This document shows, piece by piece, positions 3,512 through 58,206 of a stretch of DNA of 64,000 bases (within the stretch, counting starts at the first letter, position 1; the number at the start of each line of letters is the position of its first letter). The stretch comes from Halococcus salifodinae DSM 8989 (GTDB lineage: Archaea > Halobacteriota > Halobacteria > Halobacteriales > Halococcaceae). Made by a program: the position numbers and the translations under genes. Location: NCBI RefSeq assembly GCF_000336935.1, contig NZ_AOME01000014.1, positions 28,923-92,922 on the forward strand, given 5' to 3'. Under the pieces are notes generated by a model that saw nothing but the letters and a program-made list of their open reading frames with translations, was not told where the DNA came from and searched no databases.

Positions 3512-3711
3512 AGCGGGGCCCTCGGACGCTCGCCGCCACCGCACCGCGACCACACTGTCGAAGCCCCCTCTCTCTTCGGTCGCTCGCCCTTCATCCACCG
3601 GGAGAGCAACGCTCTCCCGAGCCCCGACTCACTCTGTTCGTCGGGACGCCGAGGGCCGCTACCGCACCGCAGCCGCTGACCGCTCTGCCGCACCGCCATC
3701 GACGGCAGGTG
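3512..3711 (-). repeat. Paired-hairpin repeat, copy between eIF1A and rio1
   Basis: Copy of the structured repeat described in the findings, reading on the minus strand. An 11-nt-loop hairpin lies at 3623-3645 (stem CCCGAC/GTCGGG, loop 3629-3639). A three-base-loop hairpin follows at 3599-3619 (stem CGGGAGAGC-type, 9 perfect pairs, loop AAC on plus). Next to it, at 3589-3598, is the GTGGATGA flank. The flanking arms are rich in GCGGTGCGGT-like sequence, as in the copies at 20.8 kb and 58 kb. No coding potential is credible here. The element separates two genes that are usually close in archaea. Confidence 0.75.
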
Positions 3712-7258: not shown

Positions 7259-7321
7259 AGCCCACAAACGGAGGGAATACGAAGTCGTGGGTGAGAGACG
7301 GCTTGAGAATTTCGGGCGGTC

Positions 7322-7545
7322 GACGGCGGTGTGATATGGCCGCTGGTGCTGTTGCGGTTATTGCAGTTGGCGCGCGAGAGCGCCGAAGGCGCGACTCGTT
7401 CGAGGTCTGCGCGAGCGAAGCGAGTGCAGGCTCGTCAGAGCGAAGCTCTGACGGTGGATGAGTGAACGAGCGGAGCGAGTGAGCGAATCGGCTGGGGAGG
7501 CGTGTGGCCTGCGGTTCTCATTTGTGTCGGCATCGCAGCGGTCTC
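7322..7545 (+). repeat. Paired-hairpin repeat, complete copy between KH gene and tetR
   Basis: Best complete copy. Order on plus: GC-rich left arm (GGCGCGCGAGAGCGCC, itself able to fold) up to about 7400; 11-nt-loop hairpin at 7407-7429 (stem CTGCGC/GTGCAG with one G-T pair, loop GAGCGAAGCGA); three-base-loop hairpin at 7433-7453 (stem CGTCAGAGC/GCTCTGACG, loop GAA); GTGGATGA at 7454-7461 region; then a GAGCGGAGCGAGTGAGCGAA spacer; then the conserved right arm at 7488-7534. The right arm is identical over 47 bases to 55123-55169 on the other strand. The whole 7259-7694 gap otherwise shows no gene. Confidence 0.85.
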
Positions 7546-7694
7546 GATACGTGTATCAGCAATCTTGCAGCGGTCTCGCTGGCTGCGACAACGATCGAAA
7601 CGAGAGTAGCTGCGACAGCAATCGAGATCACGACCGCTCGGGAGCCATAGCAATCCTCTTACTCACGCGCCGATCAGTTTCGACAGGACGACTC

Positions 7695-11834: not shown

Positions 11835-13265
11835 TCAGTGGTCGTGAGTGTGGCCGTCGTCGTGATCGTGGCTGTGGTCGGCAGTGTCGGCGTCGCTGCC
11901 GCCGTCGGAGCCGTGCTCCGACGAGGATCGGCTCGCTTCGCTCGCCTCACCGCCGTCCGCACTGATGTCACCGCCGGCGACGAGGGCGTCGTGATCGCCT
12001 TCGATCATGTCGAGGTCCTTCAGGCTGTCGCGCTCCTCGAAGTCCCGGACCGCCTCCATCAGGTCCTCTTGGGTCAGCGTAGTGCGCTCCTCGGTCAGCG
12101 CGTCGAGCACCGCCTCTCGAAGCACCAATCGAAGGTCGCTGCCGGTCAGTCCTTCAGTATCGGCGGCGAGCTCCATCGGATCGAACTCCGCGATCTCCAT
12201 CTCGTGCGTGACGAGCTGGAGGATGTCCGCACGCATCTCGACGTCGGGCTTCGGGAAGTTCACGATCTCGTCGAAGCGTCGCCACGCCGCCGCGTCGAGC
12301 TGGTCGGGGTGGTTGGTCGCGCCGATCAGGAGGACGTCGTCCTCGATCAGACTTACTTCGTCGATCGACTTGAGCAGGGTGTTGACGGCGCGCTTCAACG
12401 CGGCGTGCTCGTCGGAGTTCCTGGTTTTCGCCACGAAGTCGAACTCGTCCATGAACAGGATACACGGCGAGAGGCGTTTGGCGACCTCGAAGGTCTTCTC
12501 GACGTTTTTGGCGGTTTCGCCGAGATACTGGCTGGTGACCATCGAGAGCTTGACCTCGACGAAAGGGAGGTCGAGTTCGTGGGCGAGCGCCCGCGCGGTC
12601 GTGGTTTTGCCGGTTCCTGGCGGCCCGACGAGCAGGAGTTTCCCGATCTCGCGCAGACCGATCCCCGCGAGATACTCGCGGTGTTCGATCGCCTTCATGA
12701 TCTTCACGATCTCGTTCTCCTGATCGGCGGTAAGCACGAGATCGTCGAGGGTCATGTCGACCTCCTCGGGCGCCCGCACGTCGACGAGATCGAGCATCTC
12801 CTCGTCCTCCTCGTTGTCGAAGTATTCTTCGAGGAGGCTGTCGATCCAGACCCGATCGGCGCGCATCGGTCGGTTCGCCTCGCGCGACTGCTCGTAGTCG
12901 ACATCGGGGCCCTCGTCACGCTCCTCGAAGACGGCCGCGAGCGTTGGGTTCGCCGCGAGCCGGTCGGCGTCGACTCGGCCGGCGAACCACTCCTCGGCCA
13001 TGTCGGGCTCCGAAAGCGAGAGCGTTTCGGCGAAATCGTCGCGATCGGTGAACATCAGCCCCGACACCGCGGCCCACGGATCGTCGACACCGGTGGCGGC
13101 CGCCGCCTGCTCCTCGCCCGTCGCGAGCGGGCGTTCGACCCCCCCGTCGGCGAAGAAGACGGTGCGGTAGCGCGGCGGGAGATCCTCGGCGTCGCGTTCG
13201 CGGTGCTCGTTGTAGGCGCGTGTCGTGAGCAGGAATTCGACGACGTCCAGTTCCGGGCTGCTCAT
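11835..13265 (-). CDS. AAA-family ATPase with His-rich C-terminal tail
   Basis: 476-residue AAA ATPase. Walker A VGPPGTGKTTTA is at about residues 209-220, Walker B ILFMDEFDFV at about 270, sensor-1 GATNHPDQLD and an arginine-finger segment AAWRRFDEIV follow. The N-terminal ~170 residues (DVVEFLLTTRAYNEHRE...) are unlike proteasomal ATPases and presumably bind a partner. The tail after about residue 430 is low complexity and ends in HSHDHDDGHTHDH, a potential metal-binding segment. Part of the tail is coded by GGCGAGCGAAGCGAGCC plus CGATCCTCGTCGG, sequence shared with the repeat inside phaC. Role unknown; a chaperone or remodelling function with the adjacent hydrolase is possible. Confidence 0.9.
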   Translation of the reverse strand: MSSPELDVVEFLLTTRAYNEHRERDAEDLPPRYRTVFFADGGVERPLATGEEQAAAATGVDDPWAAVSGLMFTDRDDFAETLSLSEPDMAEEWFAGRVDADRLAANPTLAAVFEERDEGPDVDYEQSREANRPMRADRVWIDSLLEEYFDNEEDEEMLDLVDVRAPEEVDMTLDDLVLTADQENEIVKIMKAIEHREYLAGIGLREIGKLLLVGPPGTGKTTTARALAHELDLPFVEVKLSMVTSQYLGETAKNVEKTFEVAKRLSPCILFMDEFDFVAKTRNSDEHAALKRAVNTLLKSIDEVSLIEDDVLLIGATNHPDQLDAAAWRRFDEIVNFPKPDVEMRADILQLVTHEMEIAEFDPMELAADTEGLTGSDLRLVLREAVLDALTEERTTLTQEDLMEAVRDFEERDSLKDLDMIEGDHDALVAGGDISADGGEASEASRSSSEHGSDGGSDADTADHSHDHDDGHTHDH

Positions 13266-14594: not shown

Positions 14595-15010
14595 ACCGCG
14601 AGCGAACGGAGTGAGTGAGCGGGCCGAGGAATCCCGAACAGTGCGAAGAAATGATGACGACTTTTGGCAGAGGTTTTGCCAGAGGGATCGTCGGAGCAAT
14701 CCGTAGCTCTGCGCGAGCAGAGCAGGCGCGGTTCACCGAGAGCGAGACCGACAGTCGAGCCGTTGGATCTTTGTCTTCGGCGTTTTTCGAAGAATGAGTC
14801 CCGCAGCGGCCGAGGGGAACGAGGAAACGCGACGTGGTTCGAAAAAGCGTGTCGCGCTCTTTCATCATTGCAGGAAATCGGCGATTTCCTGCAAGCAGTC
14901 AGATTCCGTTGGAATCTGACGACATTGCCAGAACGCCACGCGTTCTGGCAGGCAGCCAGAACTCAAAGAGTTCTGGCTACATCACGAGAGAGCTTCACTC
15001 TCTCGAACGA
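14595..15010. repeat. Tandem array of perfect hairpins between thiolase and fic
   Basis: Non-coding stretch in the convergent thiolase/fic gap. Four perfect three-base-loop hairpins follow one another with 3-5 bases between them: 14868-14894 (12 bp, loop GGC), 14898-14920 (10 bp, loop GTT), 14926-14950 (11 bp, loop CAC), 14954-14978 (11 bp, loop AAA). A fifth, 14985-15005 (8 bp), has a five-base loop. Another at 14706-14723 (7 bp, loop GCGA) and a weaker one near 14771-14793 lie upstream. Stem sequences differ almost completely. The fifth shares CATCACGAGAG and CTCTCGAACGAC flanks with the hairpin in phaC at 36489-36511. Confidence 0.85.
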
Positions 15011-20764: not shown

Positions 20765-21145
20765 AGTGATGCGGTGGTGTGGCCGAAACATCCACCGGGC
20801 GGAGCGATATGCTCGCCCGCGAGTCGGGCCGGTGCGGCTGGTGCGGCTGGTGCGGTCTGCGGTTGCGGTGCGAGCCTGGCGTCCTGCGTTCACACCACGA
20901 ACGCAGGGCACAGGGGGAACGCCGCTCTCCTGGTGGATGAAGGGCGAACGAGCGAAGTTCTCGCGAGCGAAGCGAGCGAGAGCACGGAAGAGCTTCGCTC
21001 TTCCGGAGCGAGGGCTTCGGCGGTGCTGTGCGGATGGCGGTCGCGGAGAGCGCCAGCAGTGCTACCGCGAGTAGCGAGGGACGCTTCGCGTCCCTCGTAC
21101 CGTGCGAGCGGGAGCGACGGTAGTGAGCGACTGAGCGCAGCAAAA
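20765..21145 (+). repeat. Paired-hairpin repeat, long copy between uspA and the NhaP gene
   Basis: Non-coding region of 489 bases, most of it repeat. It has a tandem GGTGCGGCT run (about 20829-20860), a hairpin at 20884-20906 (stem CTGCGTTC-type, 7-base loop), GGTGGATGA at about 20932, an 11-nt-loop hairpin at 20959-20981 (stem TCTCGC/GCGAGA, loop GAGCGAAGCGA), a three-base-loop hairpin at 20985-21005 (9 bp, loop TTC), GAGGGCTTCGGCGGTGCTG shared with the 58 kb copy, and another hairpin at 21075-21097 (10 bp, loop TTC). Open frames across it are not conserved proteins. Confidence 0.8.
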
Positions 21146-29039: not shown

Positions 29040-29265
29040 TTTCTGGGTGGCGCGCGGGAGCGGAGCGCGGCGCGACCGAAGGGAGGGCCGCGGACGTGAA
29101 CGGGGAGCGAAGCGAGCCGTGAGCAGCGAGTGCAGGCACGTCAGAGCGTAGCTCTGACGGTGGATGACTGAGGGAGCGAACGAAGTGAGCGAGCGAAGGA
29201 GTCGGCTGGGGAGGGTGTGGCTGTCGCGGTGCGGTGGCGGTCTCTCATTTGAGTCGGTACTCGCG
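29040..29265 (+). repeat. Paired-hairpin repeat, copy upstream of hel308
   Basis: Occupies the 439-base divergent gap between ferredoxin and hel308. Order on plus: GTGGCGCGCGGGAGCG left arm; 11-nt-loop hairpin at 29100-29120 (stem ACGG/CCGT with one inner mismatch, loop GAGCGAAGCGA); GCGAGTGCAGGCA as in the 7.4 kb copy; three-base-loop hairpin at 29139-29159 (CGTCAGAGC stem, loop GTA instead of GAA); GTGGATGA; right arm from 29202, beginning TCGGCTGGGGAGG and then diverged, ending CTCATTTGAGTCGG. Promoters of both genes must lie at its edges. Confidence 0.82.
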
Positions 29266-34972: not shown

Positions 34973-35518
34973 ATGAGCGAGATGAACCCGGAGGACGTAC
35001 AGGAGAACTGGGCGGCGATGATGACCGAGATGAACGACGCGGTCGCGAACTCCTTCGAGCAGAACATGGAGGCCCAAGCCGCGTTCATGGAGTCGTGGAT
35101 GGGCGCGTTCGAGGGGTCGATGCCCGACGAGGGAACCACGAAGGAGGGGATCGAGGGGTACGAGCGCGCCGTCGACGTCTGGATGGAGGCCGCAGAGCAG
35201 ATGACCACCCGGCTCACCGCGGCCGCCGAGGGAGAAGACGTCGACGTACAGGAGCTCCGGGACATCTGGCTCCAGAGCGCGAACGAGGCCTTCTCCGAGG
35301 TGATGGGCACCAGCGCGTTCGCCGCAGGAACCGGCGAGATGGTCGGGAACCTGATGGAGCTCCAAGAGGACGTCGACGACCTGAGTCAGGACACGCTCGA
35401 AGCGCTCGGCTTTGCCACCCGCGACGATATCGACGAGGTGGGTGAACGTCTCGTCGAACTCGAACGCCGCCAACACGAGGTGTCGAAGAAGCTCGACCGG
35501 CTGCTGGAGGACGAATGA
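34973..35518 (+). CDS. phaE: PHA synthase subunit PhaE
   Basis: 181 residues, the non-catalytic subunit of class III haloarchaeal PHA synthase. Helical and acidic, with [20 protein letters not shown], the hydrophobic patch [14 protein letters not shown], and a C-terminal leucine-heptad region ([20 protein letters not shown]) that probably contacts PhaC. ATG 34973, 42 bases after phaP; stop overlaps phaC start by 4 bases. Confidence 0.9.
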
Positions 35519-37080
35519 GCGACCGCGGTACGGGGGCGTTCAACCCGTTCACGACGGCGCTCGACGCCCAGCGCCGGAGCTTCGAGGCCGCCGCCGAGGC
35601 GGTCGAGAAGACCACGGTCGCGCCCGAGCAGTTGAACCAGATGCTCTCGGTCGAGGTGGGCGAGACCCCGAGCGAAGTAGTGTATACCGAGAACAAGCTC
35701 GAACTCCTCCACTACGAGCCGCGGACCGACGAACAGCACGACGTGCCGATCCTCGTGATTTACGCGCTGATCAACAAGCCGTTCATCCTCGACCTCCAGC
35801 CCGACCGGTCGGTGATCCGGCGGCTCCTGGAGGCGGGCTTCGACGTCTACATGATCGACTGGAACGAACCCTCCAGGCTCGATCAGCATCTCACCCTCGA
35901 CGACTACGTGAACCGATACATCGAGAACTGCGTCGACGAAGTCCGCGAGGAGTCGGACCAGGATTCGATCAATATTCTGGGCTACTGCATGGGTGGTACG
36001 ATGTCGGCGATGTACGCCGCGCTCCACCCCGAGAAGGTCCGGAATCTCGGGCTGATGGCCGCCGGGCTCTGTTTCGACGACACTGGAGGAGTACTCGAAC
36101 TCTGGGGCGACGAGGAGTTCTTCTCGCCCGACGAACTCCGGGCGACCTACGGCAACGCACCCGCGGAGATGCTCGATGTGGGCTTCGCGTTGATGGATCC
36201 CGTCTCGAACTACGTCTCGAAGTACGTCCGCCTGTACGACAACCTCGACAACGACGACTTCGTCGAAAACTTCGGGCGGATGGAGCGGTGGCTCTCGGAG
36301 GGAATCGATGTCGCGGGCGCGACGTTCGCCCAGTTCGTCGAGGACATCTATCAGGACAACAAGCTCTACGAGAACGAGCTGTACCTCGGCGGTGAGCGAA
36401 CCGCCGGTTCGCGATCCTCGTCGGGCGAGCGAAGCGAGGCGCAACCAGAGGGAGCGTGGTCCGAGACGCCTTCGGCGTCTCGTCATCACGAGAGGCGCGA
36501 CGCGCCTCTCGAACGACCTCGGAACGGCGAACGGCGAAGCCGTGAGCGAAGCGAGTCCGACGGCGGCGAGCGCGCTGACGGCGGCGAGCACGTCGATCTC
36601 GCGAACATCGACATGCCCGTCCTCCAGATCACCGGCGAGTACGACCATCTCATCCCCTCCGAGACGAGCAAACCGTTCAACGACGTCATCGCGAGCGAGG
36701 ACACCGCAATCATCGAGTATCCGACGGGCCACATCGGGCTCTCGGTCTCGGGTAGCTCCCACGAGAACGTCTGGCCGCAGGTCTGCGAGTGGTTCGAGGA
36801 ACGGTCACAGCTCGACACCGAGGCCGCCGAAATAGAAATCGAGAGTGCGAGCGAAACGGCCGACGACGTGGCCGCTAGCGATGATGGAAGCGACGCAGAG
36901 GCTGACGACGAGTCGGGTCTCGAAACCGTTTCCGGGATCGGTGACACCTACGCCGCGCGGCTACGCGGGGCGGGGGTCGAGACGACCGCGGACCTCGCGG
37001 CCGCCGACGCTGCAACTGTTGCCGACGCTGCCGAAGTGTCCGAGAGTCGCGCTACCGAGTGGATCGAACAGGCGTCCTGA
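35515..37080 (+). CDS. phaC: PHA synthase catalytic subunit PhaC with repeat-derived insert and HhH tail
   Basis: 521-residue class III synthase that polymerises (R)-3-hydroxyacyl-CoA on granules. The lipase-like box GYCMGG carries catalytic Cys158, with Asp377 in GEYDHLIP and His406 in GHIGLSVSG. Between LYLGG (residue ~293) and [13 protein letters not shown] (~362) lie ~70 Arg/Ser/Glu-rich residues coded by structured repeat DNA. The insert is in frame and precedes the Asp/His part of the triad, so the enzyme may still fold with a surface loop. Residues ~460-521 contain a helix-hairpin-helix-like domain ([19 protein letters not shown]) after an acidic linker. Confidence 0.93.
36391..36600 (+). 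repeat. Structured repeat inserted in frame in phaC
   Basis: Hairpins with three-base loops at 36396-36412 (7 bp, loop GCC), 36462-36482 (9 bp, loop TTC), 36489-36511 (10 bp, loop GAC) and 36531-36543 (5 bp, loop GAA). GCGAGCGAAGCGAG occurs at about 36425 and again at about 36544. The hairpin at 36489-36511 has the same outer flanks as the fifth hairpin of the 14.9 kb array. CGATCCTCGTCGG (36411-36424) also occurs in the AAA ATPase tail. The protein it encodes is low-complexity, unlike the flanking PhaC sequence. Confidence 0.8.
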
Positions 37081-48593: not shown

Positions 48594-48680
48594 ACGCGAG
48601 GGAGGGGCCGGTGGAGTATAAGTCCACGCTCGCCGGTAGATCGGGGCGCTATCGGTCGGAATGCCGTCTCCGGTCTTGGT

Positions 48681-48965
48681 GCGGTGGCGCGCGGGAGGGC
48701 GGCGAAGACGCCCGACTCGCGCGAGGGATGAGCGAAGGAACGGAGTGACTGAGCGAATCGGTTGGGGAGGTGTGTGGCTGTTGCGGCGCGGTGCTGAGGT
48801 GGTGGTGTCGGTAATCGAACCGCGAACGAGCAACGCGAGTGAGCGGGTGTTTTTAGTCCAGGTTTTTGCGAGGAGCGGTGCGCGAGCGAAGCGAGCGCAC
48901 CCGACGAAGTAAAAAAGTGGGCGCGGGAGGCGTGTGGCTTGCGGTTCTCATTTGTATCGGCACCC
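48681..48965 (+). repeat. Mosaic repeat copy with split right arm upstream of a zinc-protein gene
   Basis: Fills most of the 457-base divergent gap 48594-49050. The left arm GTGGCGCGCGGGAGGG and GGATGAGCGAAGG lead into TCGGTTGGGGAGGTGTGTGG (about 48758-48777), after which the right arm breaks off. A separate module follows at about 48820-48917, with an 11-nt-loop hairpin at 48877-48901 (stem GGTGCGC/GCGCACC, loop GAGCGAAGCGA) and CGAAGTAAAAA. The right arm then resumes at 48926-48963 (GGAGGCGTGTGGCTTGCGG, ending CATTTGTATCGGCAC). This looks like one copy interrupted by another. Confidence 0.8.
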
Positions 48966-49011
48966 GGTTCGAACGAACTAGCAGTCGTCGACCCGGCTAC
49001 TGCCGAGGGCT

Positions 49012-49029
49012 GGAGAAAGGGCTTTCTCC
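49012..49029 (+). repeat. Hairpin just upstream of the 74-aa zinc-protein gene
   Basis: GGAGAAA and TTTCTCC pair with a GGGC loop, 21 bases before the ATG at 49051. It would fold in the 5' leader if transcription starts upstream; otherwise it is part of the nearby repeat. Confidence 0.4.
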
Positions 49030-49050
49030 GGGCGTACCCACCAGCCATCC

Positions 49051-49275
49051 ATGACTACCGAGCCGTGTGACAGCTGCGGACGCGCGGTGCAGATCGCCGG
49101 CGGGATCGCGAACCTCTGGACGTTCGGCGGTGACGCGAGCGAGGGGCTGACCCTCGAATTCGAAGACGGCTCCGAGTATCTCCTCTGCTATGACTGTATC
49201 GAGCGACTCCCCGAGGACGCGCGGGCGGCGGACGTCGCGGCGCTCGACGAGTACGAGCACTCGGTCGACGAGTAG
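49051..49275 (+). CDS. Small zinc-ribbon protein, 74 aa
   Basis: Two CxxC pairs: PCDSCGRAVQIAGG at the start and LLCYDCIERLPED in the middle, a clear zinc ribbon. The rest is acidic (DGSEYLLCYDC, ALDEYEHSVDE). Of the DUF7561 type as far as I can tell; role unknown. It lies 38 bases before the XPD-like helicase gene and may be co-transcribed. Confidence 0.8.
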   Translation: MTTEPCDSCGRAVQIAGGIANLWTFGGDASEGLTLEFEDGSEYLLCYDCIERLPEDARAADVAALDEYEHSVDE

Positions 49276-57861: not shown

Positions 57862-57869
57862 CACGAACC

Positions 57870-57874
57870 TTTTT
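57870..57874 (+). terminator. T-run terminator after radA
   Basis: Five T on the coding strand, nine bases after the radA stop. It also forms the edge of a repeat module whose hairpin (57881-57914) follows directly, so radA transcripts may end on a stem. Confidence 0.5.
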
Positions 57875-58200
57875 ACTTCGGGGGTTCGCGCTCGCTCCGC
57901 TCGCGCTCAACCCCTCGCAAAAACGTTCATGAAAAACACCCGCTCACTCGGCCTCCGGCCTCGTTCGCGGTGAACCGCGCTCGCTGCGCTCGCGCGGATA
58001 CAATCGCTTTCTACAAACCACACAGCACCGCCCGAGCCCTCGGCCCTACGGGCCTCGCCCTCGATCCACCGAGGACCGCACCGCACCGCTCCGCGACCGC
58101 ACCGCTCCGCGACCGCACGGCATCGCCAAAGCCCTCGACTGTTCGCTCCGCTCGTCAGGACGCCAGGCCCGCAACCGTACCGCCACCGCAGCCGCAGCAA
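57875..58200 (-). repeat. Mosaic repeat copy between radA and sufU
   Basis: Reads on minus and fills the convergent gap. Hairpin 57881-57914 has outer stem GGGGTT/AACCCC, inner GCGC/GCGC and an 11-nt loop that reads GAGCGGAGCGA on minus. Hairpin 57975-57997 has stem CCGCGC/GCGCGG and 11-nt loop GAGCGCAGCGA. A smaller one at 58042-58054 has loop TAC. GTGTTTTT with GTTTTTGCGAGG matches the 48.8 kb module. A 16-base unit CGCACCGCTCCGCGAC is repeated in tandem at about 58082-58114. No gene is seen in 57862-58206. Confidence 0.8.
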
Positions 58201-58206
58201 AAGCCG

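Follow-up and report, generated by a model that had tools for sequence, protein, structure and literature searches.

REP elements have stems that are conserved in sequence and carry GTAG/CGTC tags, and RAYT, their partner enzyme, is a Y1 transposase. Enzymes of the Y1 type read the ends of their elements as strand-specific mismatched hairpins, without inverted repeats and with little target duplication. A different kind of hairpin repeat is found in the mitochondria of Allomyces and Schizosaccharomyces, whose double-hairpin elements (DHE), like the RHE of sponges, are short GC-rich hairpins that are held to be mobile by a mechanism that is unknown (PMC10085805, PMC2800124). Among haloarchaea, Haloquadratum walsbyi carries PATE and small mobile repeats (SMR), which the consulted part of the published account describes as transposase-free and mobile, one being as short as 52 bp (PMC3119063).

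The window analysed here is a stretch of 64,000 nucleotides from the genome of Halococcus salifodinae DSM 8989 (G000 in our set). A first-pass annotation had pointed to seven hairpins with a shared 11-nt loop and to three neighbouring hairpins with 3-nt loops, all of which are indeed present in the sequence. Below we describe the unit to which they belong, its occurrence in other genomes and its relation to the systems above.

Results

A two-hairpin module and its copies in the window

The paired hairpins at 7407-7453 form one copy of a unit of about 50 bp, the two-hairpin or A/B module. With copies lined up before GGATGA, its layout is TC-A-GGCT-B-GYGGATGA, the GYGGATGA tail being usual. Hairpin A has a variable stem of 6 bp, tandem G.A mismatches (GA.GA), a 2-bp stem and a GNA loop, and hairpin B has a 9-bp stem with a loop of 2-3 nt. 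What had been taken for an 11-nt loop in hairpin A is itself folded, with the tandem G.A mismatches around the 2-bp stem and the GNA triloop. The loop sequence is less uniform than first described: the loop of 3623-3645 (GAACAGAGTGA, minus strand) agrees with GAGCGAAGCGA at only 7 of 11 positions, the fold remaining the same as the inner pair changes from GC/GC to AC/GT. The second hairpin said to lie often nearby is confirmed in three pairs but does not follow the hairpins at 48877, 57881 and 57975, which are parts of larger composite elements.

A covariance model, R1, was built from copies of the module and searched over genomes. Its scores are given with the features of the window below; genes were called with our own script, and their ends are approximate.

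3591-3652, minus strand: A/B module, hairpin A at 3623-3645 and hairpin B at 3599-3619 (R1 80.7 bits)
7400-7461, plus strand: A/B module, hairpin A at 7407-7429, linker, hairpin B at 7433-7453, then GTGGATGA (R1 74.7 bits, E 1.7e-18)
11835-13265, minus strand: AAA-ATPase gene (Pfam AAA)
11895-11953, minus strand: A/B module, a 51-bp in-frame insertion close to the 3' end of the AAA-ATPase gene (R1 35.8 bits)
20876-20940, plus strand: A/B module with a partly degenerate B, preceding GTGGATGAAGGGCGA (R1 39.4 bits)
20952-21011, plus strand: A/B module, hairpin A at 20959-20981 and hairpin B at 20985-21005, within the variable part of a larger element (R1 51.8 bits)
29109-29167, plus strand: A/B module with an altered A, hairpin B at 29139-29159 (R1 37 bits)
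36392-36586, plus strand: in-frame hairpin array of 195 bp with two copies of GAGCGAAGCGA, inside a PhaC/alpha-beta hydrolase-type gene at 35515-37080 (Pfam)
48877-48901, plus strand: A-type hairpin that ends a segment of about 190 bp between imperfect direct repeats GGGAGGYGTGTGGC
57862-58206, minus strand: larger composite element between Rad51-type and NifU-type genes, containing the hairpins 57881-57914 and 57975-57997

The fold is maintained while the letters change

Covariation is strong, both within Halococcus and across genera, and supports the proposal that what persists is structure and not sequence. In Halococcus, where 28 distinct copies were compared, 99.2% of cells are paired compared to 82.4% after shuffling, 13 of 17 pairs show changes on both sides, and the covariation score is 0.493 versus 0.176; the pairing signal is lost when the partner is slid by one base. 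When Halococcus and other genera are taken together, 97.6% of cells are paired in 59 distinct copies and 16 of 17 pairs have changed on both sides (0 of 500 shuffles), in an alignment that was fitted to the covariance model and so leans towards it. The fold is maintained by compensatory changes.

A constant loop on a variable stem, as first proposed, describes hairpin A, whose loop is mostly GNA in the 80 distinct copies compared, but not hairpin B, in which the inner stem GAGAGC/GCTCTC is conserved while the outer stem varies and the loop of 2-3 nt follows no sequence rule. GA.GA is retained in 66 of these 80 copies (TC.GA takes its place in 9), and the module strand has 43 G.U pairs against 13 A.C mismatches (p = 7e-5 on the assumption of independent cells, which does not hold). 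A single folded strand thus seems to be what is kept. The asymmetry is confined to the defined module: when every hairpin close to a core word is counted, single mismatches divide evenly into 13 G.U and 15 A.C.

Hairpins and the core word exceed chance

Hairpin statistics were taken from the window and 52 further stretches, which cover 1.08 Mb of the 4.2-Mb genome. Intergenic DNA in this sample contains 93 perfect triloop hairpins whose stems reach 9 bp or more, where an order-3 Markov model predicts 1.6, and coding DNA contains 20, which is near the 16 expected. Tetraloop hairpins with stems this long number only 5 in the same sample, a far weaker enrichment, so the excess is one of 3-nt loops. 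Within 183 kb of intergenic DNA there are 37 copies of the word GAGCGAAGCGA, compared to 0-2 in order-4 Markov sequence. Exact-word searches also gave hits in H. morrhuae and H. thailandensis. On whether the word might be equally common outside hairpins, a point that the first-pass annotation had raised, the counts pull two ways: a flanking stem of at least 4 bp encloses it in 18 of 49 copies, against 2.3 when the flanks are shuffled, and it is therefore enriched in hairpins, but the majority of copies (31 of 49) have no such stem.

Filled and empty sites

Each species was represented by one genome, and modules were sampled from the available loci. Comparison between species indicates that the module inserts as a unit, and transposition is deduced from these comparisons. 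Related species do hold empty sites, for example at the AAA-ATPase, 7.4-kb and 29.1-kb positions, and such filled and empty pairs support the earlier suggestion of a non-autonomous mobile element. G000 and its relative G073 both carry the 51-bp insert in the AAA-ATPase gene (which reads GEASEASRSSSEHGSDG); the same codon is empty in G044 and in five species that are more distant, H. thailandensis, G157, G209, G250 and G256. At the 7.4-kb site, where automatic alignment is poor and the sequences themselves are clear, G073 and G292 have the host repeat unbroken and without the module, as GCGAGG-GATGA (here and below a hyphen marks the junction). At the 29.1-kb site G073 has an unbroken CGCGAGG-GATGACTGA, and it also has no module at the place corresponding to 20952-21011. 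Filled and empty loci are likewise paired between H. thailandensis (L160) and H. morrhuae (L096), and between L162 and L128. On the Rad51 side, the larger element holds the same place and orientation in 10 of 10 Halococcus genomes, and its A/B module is filled in G073, G044, G236, G250 and G256, empty in four, and present only as a remnant in G000.

Many module copies are old and common to several species. Precise loss by slippage between short repeats could be the source of some empty sites; it does not easily fit the AAA-ATPase site, where six empty species stand against two related filled ones.

In 30 insertion contexts, hand-picked from a longer list with duplicates and two common host contexts removed, the middle base of GNG is equal on both flanks in 26, compared to 9.7 expected, and further bases agree at chance level; we therefore conclude that the target duplication is 2-3 bp. 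Complementarity between the B arm and the target was considered as a guide for insertion and rejected, since positions 4-7 match 60 times versus 59.3 by chance in the 30 contexts and only GNG is duplicated. Repeats of 6-8 bp that resemble the B stem occur at some insertion sites. Hairpin tips were also considered as insertion targets, and 58 contexts showed no overall enrichment, with a few clear cases such as L162 in GCATCCCGGAGGGATGC.

Host repeats and related arrays

The usual setting of the module is a larger repeat that is likewise rich in hairpins. Two types of host repeat can be distinguished, GCGCGAGG-GATGA..TCGGYTGGGGAGG (type 1) and CCTGG-YGGATGAAGGGCGAG..CGAGGGCTTCGG (type 2); an exact 17-mer of type 2 occurs 32-60 times per Halococcus genome and is rare elsewhere. 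Other genera also have the module within sequences of tRNA 3' ends and at sites rich in T. At L281, L288, L289 and L293, module copies break matches to the 3' part of tRNA genes (GGCG-GATTCGAACC), and L293 has two units in tandem. Two genomes of genus g24 (G059 and G114; L294-L304) carry near-identical module copies inside a recently amplified MITE with long inverted repeats (GTGTTCAGATAAG / GTAGTGTTCAGATAAG) and target duplications of 8-9 bp.

Other hairpin-rich segments of the window also differ between species. The array at 36392-36586 in the PhaC-like gene, whose 195 bp are a multiple of three, is present in G000 and missing in G073, G157 and G209. The segment of about 190 bp within 48594-49086, which has T-runs and ends in GAAGTAAAAAAGTGGG, is present in G000 and G073 and missing in G044. 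Beside a Fic-domain gene, at 14868-15005, five hairpins follow one another with loops of 3-5 nt and mostly unrelated stems; the first two have near-identical counterparts at L059 1684-1736 and L078 17780-17832. Nested three-way structures occur at L053 10367-10440 and L078 17714-17780, in which a stem such as GAAACGGC..GCCGTTTC holds either a triloop or two hairpins, and they look as though hairpin pairs had entered a loop.

Distribution over genomes

The covariance model search of haloarchaeal genomes that the first-pass annotation had recommended returned R1 matches in 103 of 116 Halobacteria genomes and in 39 of 45 genera, often with 10 to at least 46 modules per genome, the highest counts being lower bounds since no more than 46 candidates were scored in each; the spread is class-wide. 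In a sample of the phylum, R1 matched 21 of 24 Halobacteria and 0 of 124 Halobacteriota from outside that class. Rfam 15 gave nothing above the gathering threshold over the whole window and nothing at E<=1 over 7259-7694, and literature searches, which included exact sequence words, returned no account of this family. The view that no named family has this design agrees with both searches, but the mitochondrial double-hairpin elements are a close analogue of it.

An origin from viruses was considered and is not backed by our searches: the exact B-hairpin pattern had no match in viral contigs and the consensus module none in phage records, and matches were found instead in four Halorussus plasmids. 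One 17-kb contig predicted to be viral contains the core word of the larger element (L213 895-914).

Discussion

We give about an even chance to the reading that the paired hairpins represent one copy of a mobile element, non-autonomous and some 50 bp long with the layout T-C-[A]-GGCT-[B]-GNG, that is recognised by its single-strand fold. It draws on the unit insertion seen between species, the conserved fold, its preference for one strand and its spread across the class. The unit inserts at GNG sites with a target duplication of 2-3 bp, often within other repeats and at times within genes, where it keeps the reading frame. Recognition of the folded single strand would fall to a trans-acting enzyme that then moves or copies the module, the substrate most likely being single-stranded DNA that is exposed during replication. 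The G.A platform of hairpin A and the conserved linkers would serve as recognition features, and the letters of the stems could then drift freely provided that pairing holds. The B loops of only 2-3 nt and the triloop excess fit DNA hairpins, and tight loops, few tetraloops and the stability of GCGAAGC, a DNA hairpin of extraordinary stability (PMC6582339), tilt the choice towards DNA over RNA. We linked no transposase or other enzyme to the module, Y1_Tnp having been tested by genome distribution. A more specific proposal, which we put forward tentatively and with more doubt than conviction, is of a class-wide mobile element inherited as a single-strand fold, in which a non-Y1 enzyme acting in trans would read the tandem G.A and a tight DNA turn and insert the 50-nt unit at GNG, leaving the stems to evolve freely.

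Compensatory changes and G.U over A.C are classic marks of RNA, and the module shows both, the latter on one strand (43:13). The transcribed module strand could accordingly fold as a protein-binding site or as a signal for 3'-end stability or processing, and have been selected and spread through its usefulness, which would also suit the larger elements, since these adjoin T-runs after stop codons. However, a strand-specific fold is equally suited to single-stranded DNA, and in 20 of 31 copies the module strand lies antisense to the adjacent 5' gene, so that read-through RNA would usually carry the complement, in which G.A becomes C.T. Tetraloops, which are usual in RNA, are nearly absent among the long hairpins; the sequence of the B loop is free, Rfam offers no match, and the module lies in frame inside coding sequence. 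With the triloops and the random-to-antisense gene orientation mildly against it, the label of RNA-structured element does not carry over from the first-pass annotation, and we consider such a function somewhat unlikely. Arms could also be copied onto each other neutrally, by template switching or palindrome correction, with no selection on structure and with insertions as by-products. The excess of long perfect triloop hairpins, the lack of a loop-sequence rule in B and the even mismatches across all hairpins near core words (G.U 13, A.C 15) are in line with this, as is TC.GA in place of GA.GA in 9 of 80 copies, which correction would yield. Within the module, however, there are 43 G.U against 13 A.C, and 66 of 80 copies retain GA.GA although correction ought to remove it; conserved linkers and a precise unit size need more than arm copying, which is therefore an unlikely explanation.

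A Y1 transposase of the IS200/IS605 family (TnpA or RAYT) would account for two hairpins without inverted repeats, little target duplication and a strand-specific mismatched hairpin, as in elements of the PATE or REP type. Set against this, PF01797 (Y1_Tnp) was not detected in G044, G073, G041, G024 and G022, which carry from 14 to at least 46 modules (36 in G044, at least 46 in G073), and G014 has ten Y1_Tnp and no module. A Y1 enzyme could have been lost or have diverged, and we judge movement by this family improbable. It is very unlikely that the module is only a passenger, a fixed inner component of ordinary MITEs that depend on a transposase acting on terminal inverted repeats. The copies in G059 and G114, inside a MITE with inverted repeats and 8-9-bp target duplications, are what this would predict, but elsewhere the contexts are unrelated (larger repeats of two kinds, the 3' ends of tRNAs, T-runs and coding genes), and orthologues that have the host repeat and are without exactly the module largely refute it for Halococcus.

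A non-autonomous element recognised by its fold would provide a clean case, open to testing, of structural conservation in a mobile repeat, and one found in most of the haloarchaeal genera sampled. The module would explain some of the GC-rich hairpins that recur between genes in haloarchaeal genomes, shows a route by which proteins acquire short in-frame insertions, and points to an enzyme able to recognise folded DNA or RNA.

Comparison with known systems

The nearest design is that of the mitochondrial DHE, a likeness of design and not of compared sequences. DHE and RHE too consist of two adjacent short GC-rich hairpins, dispersed mostly between genes and sometimes within them, and the module shares with DHE the two adjacent hairpins as a repeated unit and presence or absence at orthologous sites. 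Theirs are mitochondrial, whereas the module is found across a whole archaeal class and has tandem G.A mismatches; in sponge RHE the stems are kept and the loops vary, whereas in hairpin A the loop is constant and the stem changes.

Among haloarchaeal repeats, PATE and small mobile repeats are nearest, when the module is set against their description in the consulted part of the source (PMC3119063). As described there, PATE are palindromes without terminal inverted repeats, which the module also lacks, its ends being TC.. and ..GNG, and SMR resemble it in targeting other mobile elements (PMC3119063). PATE palindromes are, however, linked to the ends of IS605 and insert without target duplication, whereas 26 of 30 contexts of the module show the middle base of GNG duplicated (9.7 expected); SMR possess inverted terminal repeats, and that part of the account does not describe PATE or SMR as two hairpins with covarying stems (PMC3119063). 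The dependence on Y1 that defines the IS200/IS605-PATE group was not found for the module, judging only by distribution.

The REP/BIME repeats of bacteria with RAYT are high-copy intergenic hairpin repeats that also occur in pairs, but the A stems of the module vary, its flanks are GNG-TC and GNG-GA without a GTAG/CGTC foot tag, and Y1 is, by distribution, not needed. MITEs are small and non-autonomous as well, and that of genus g24 carries the module; the module alone is without terminal inverted repeats and makes only a 2-3-bp duplication, whereas the carrier in G059 and G114 has the defining features of a MITE. As tested, the module fails at least one defining feature each of PATE, REP and MITE, and we rate structural conservation as its new aspect among small non-autonomous hairpin repeats.
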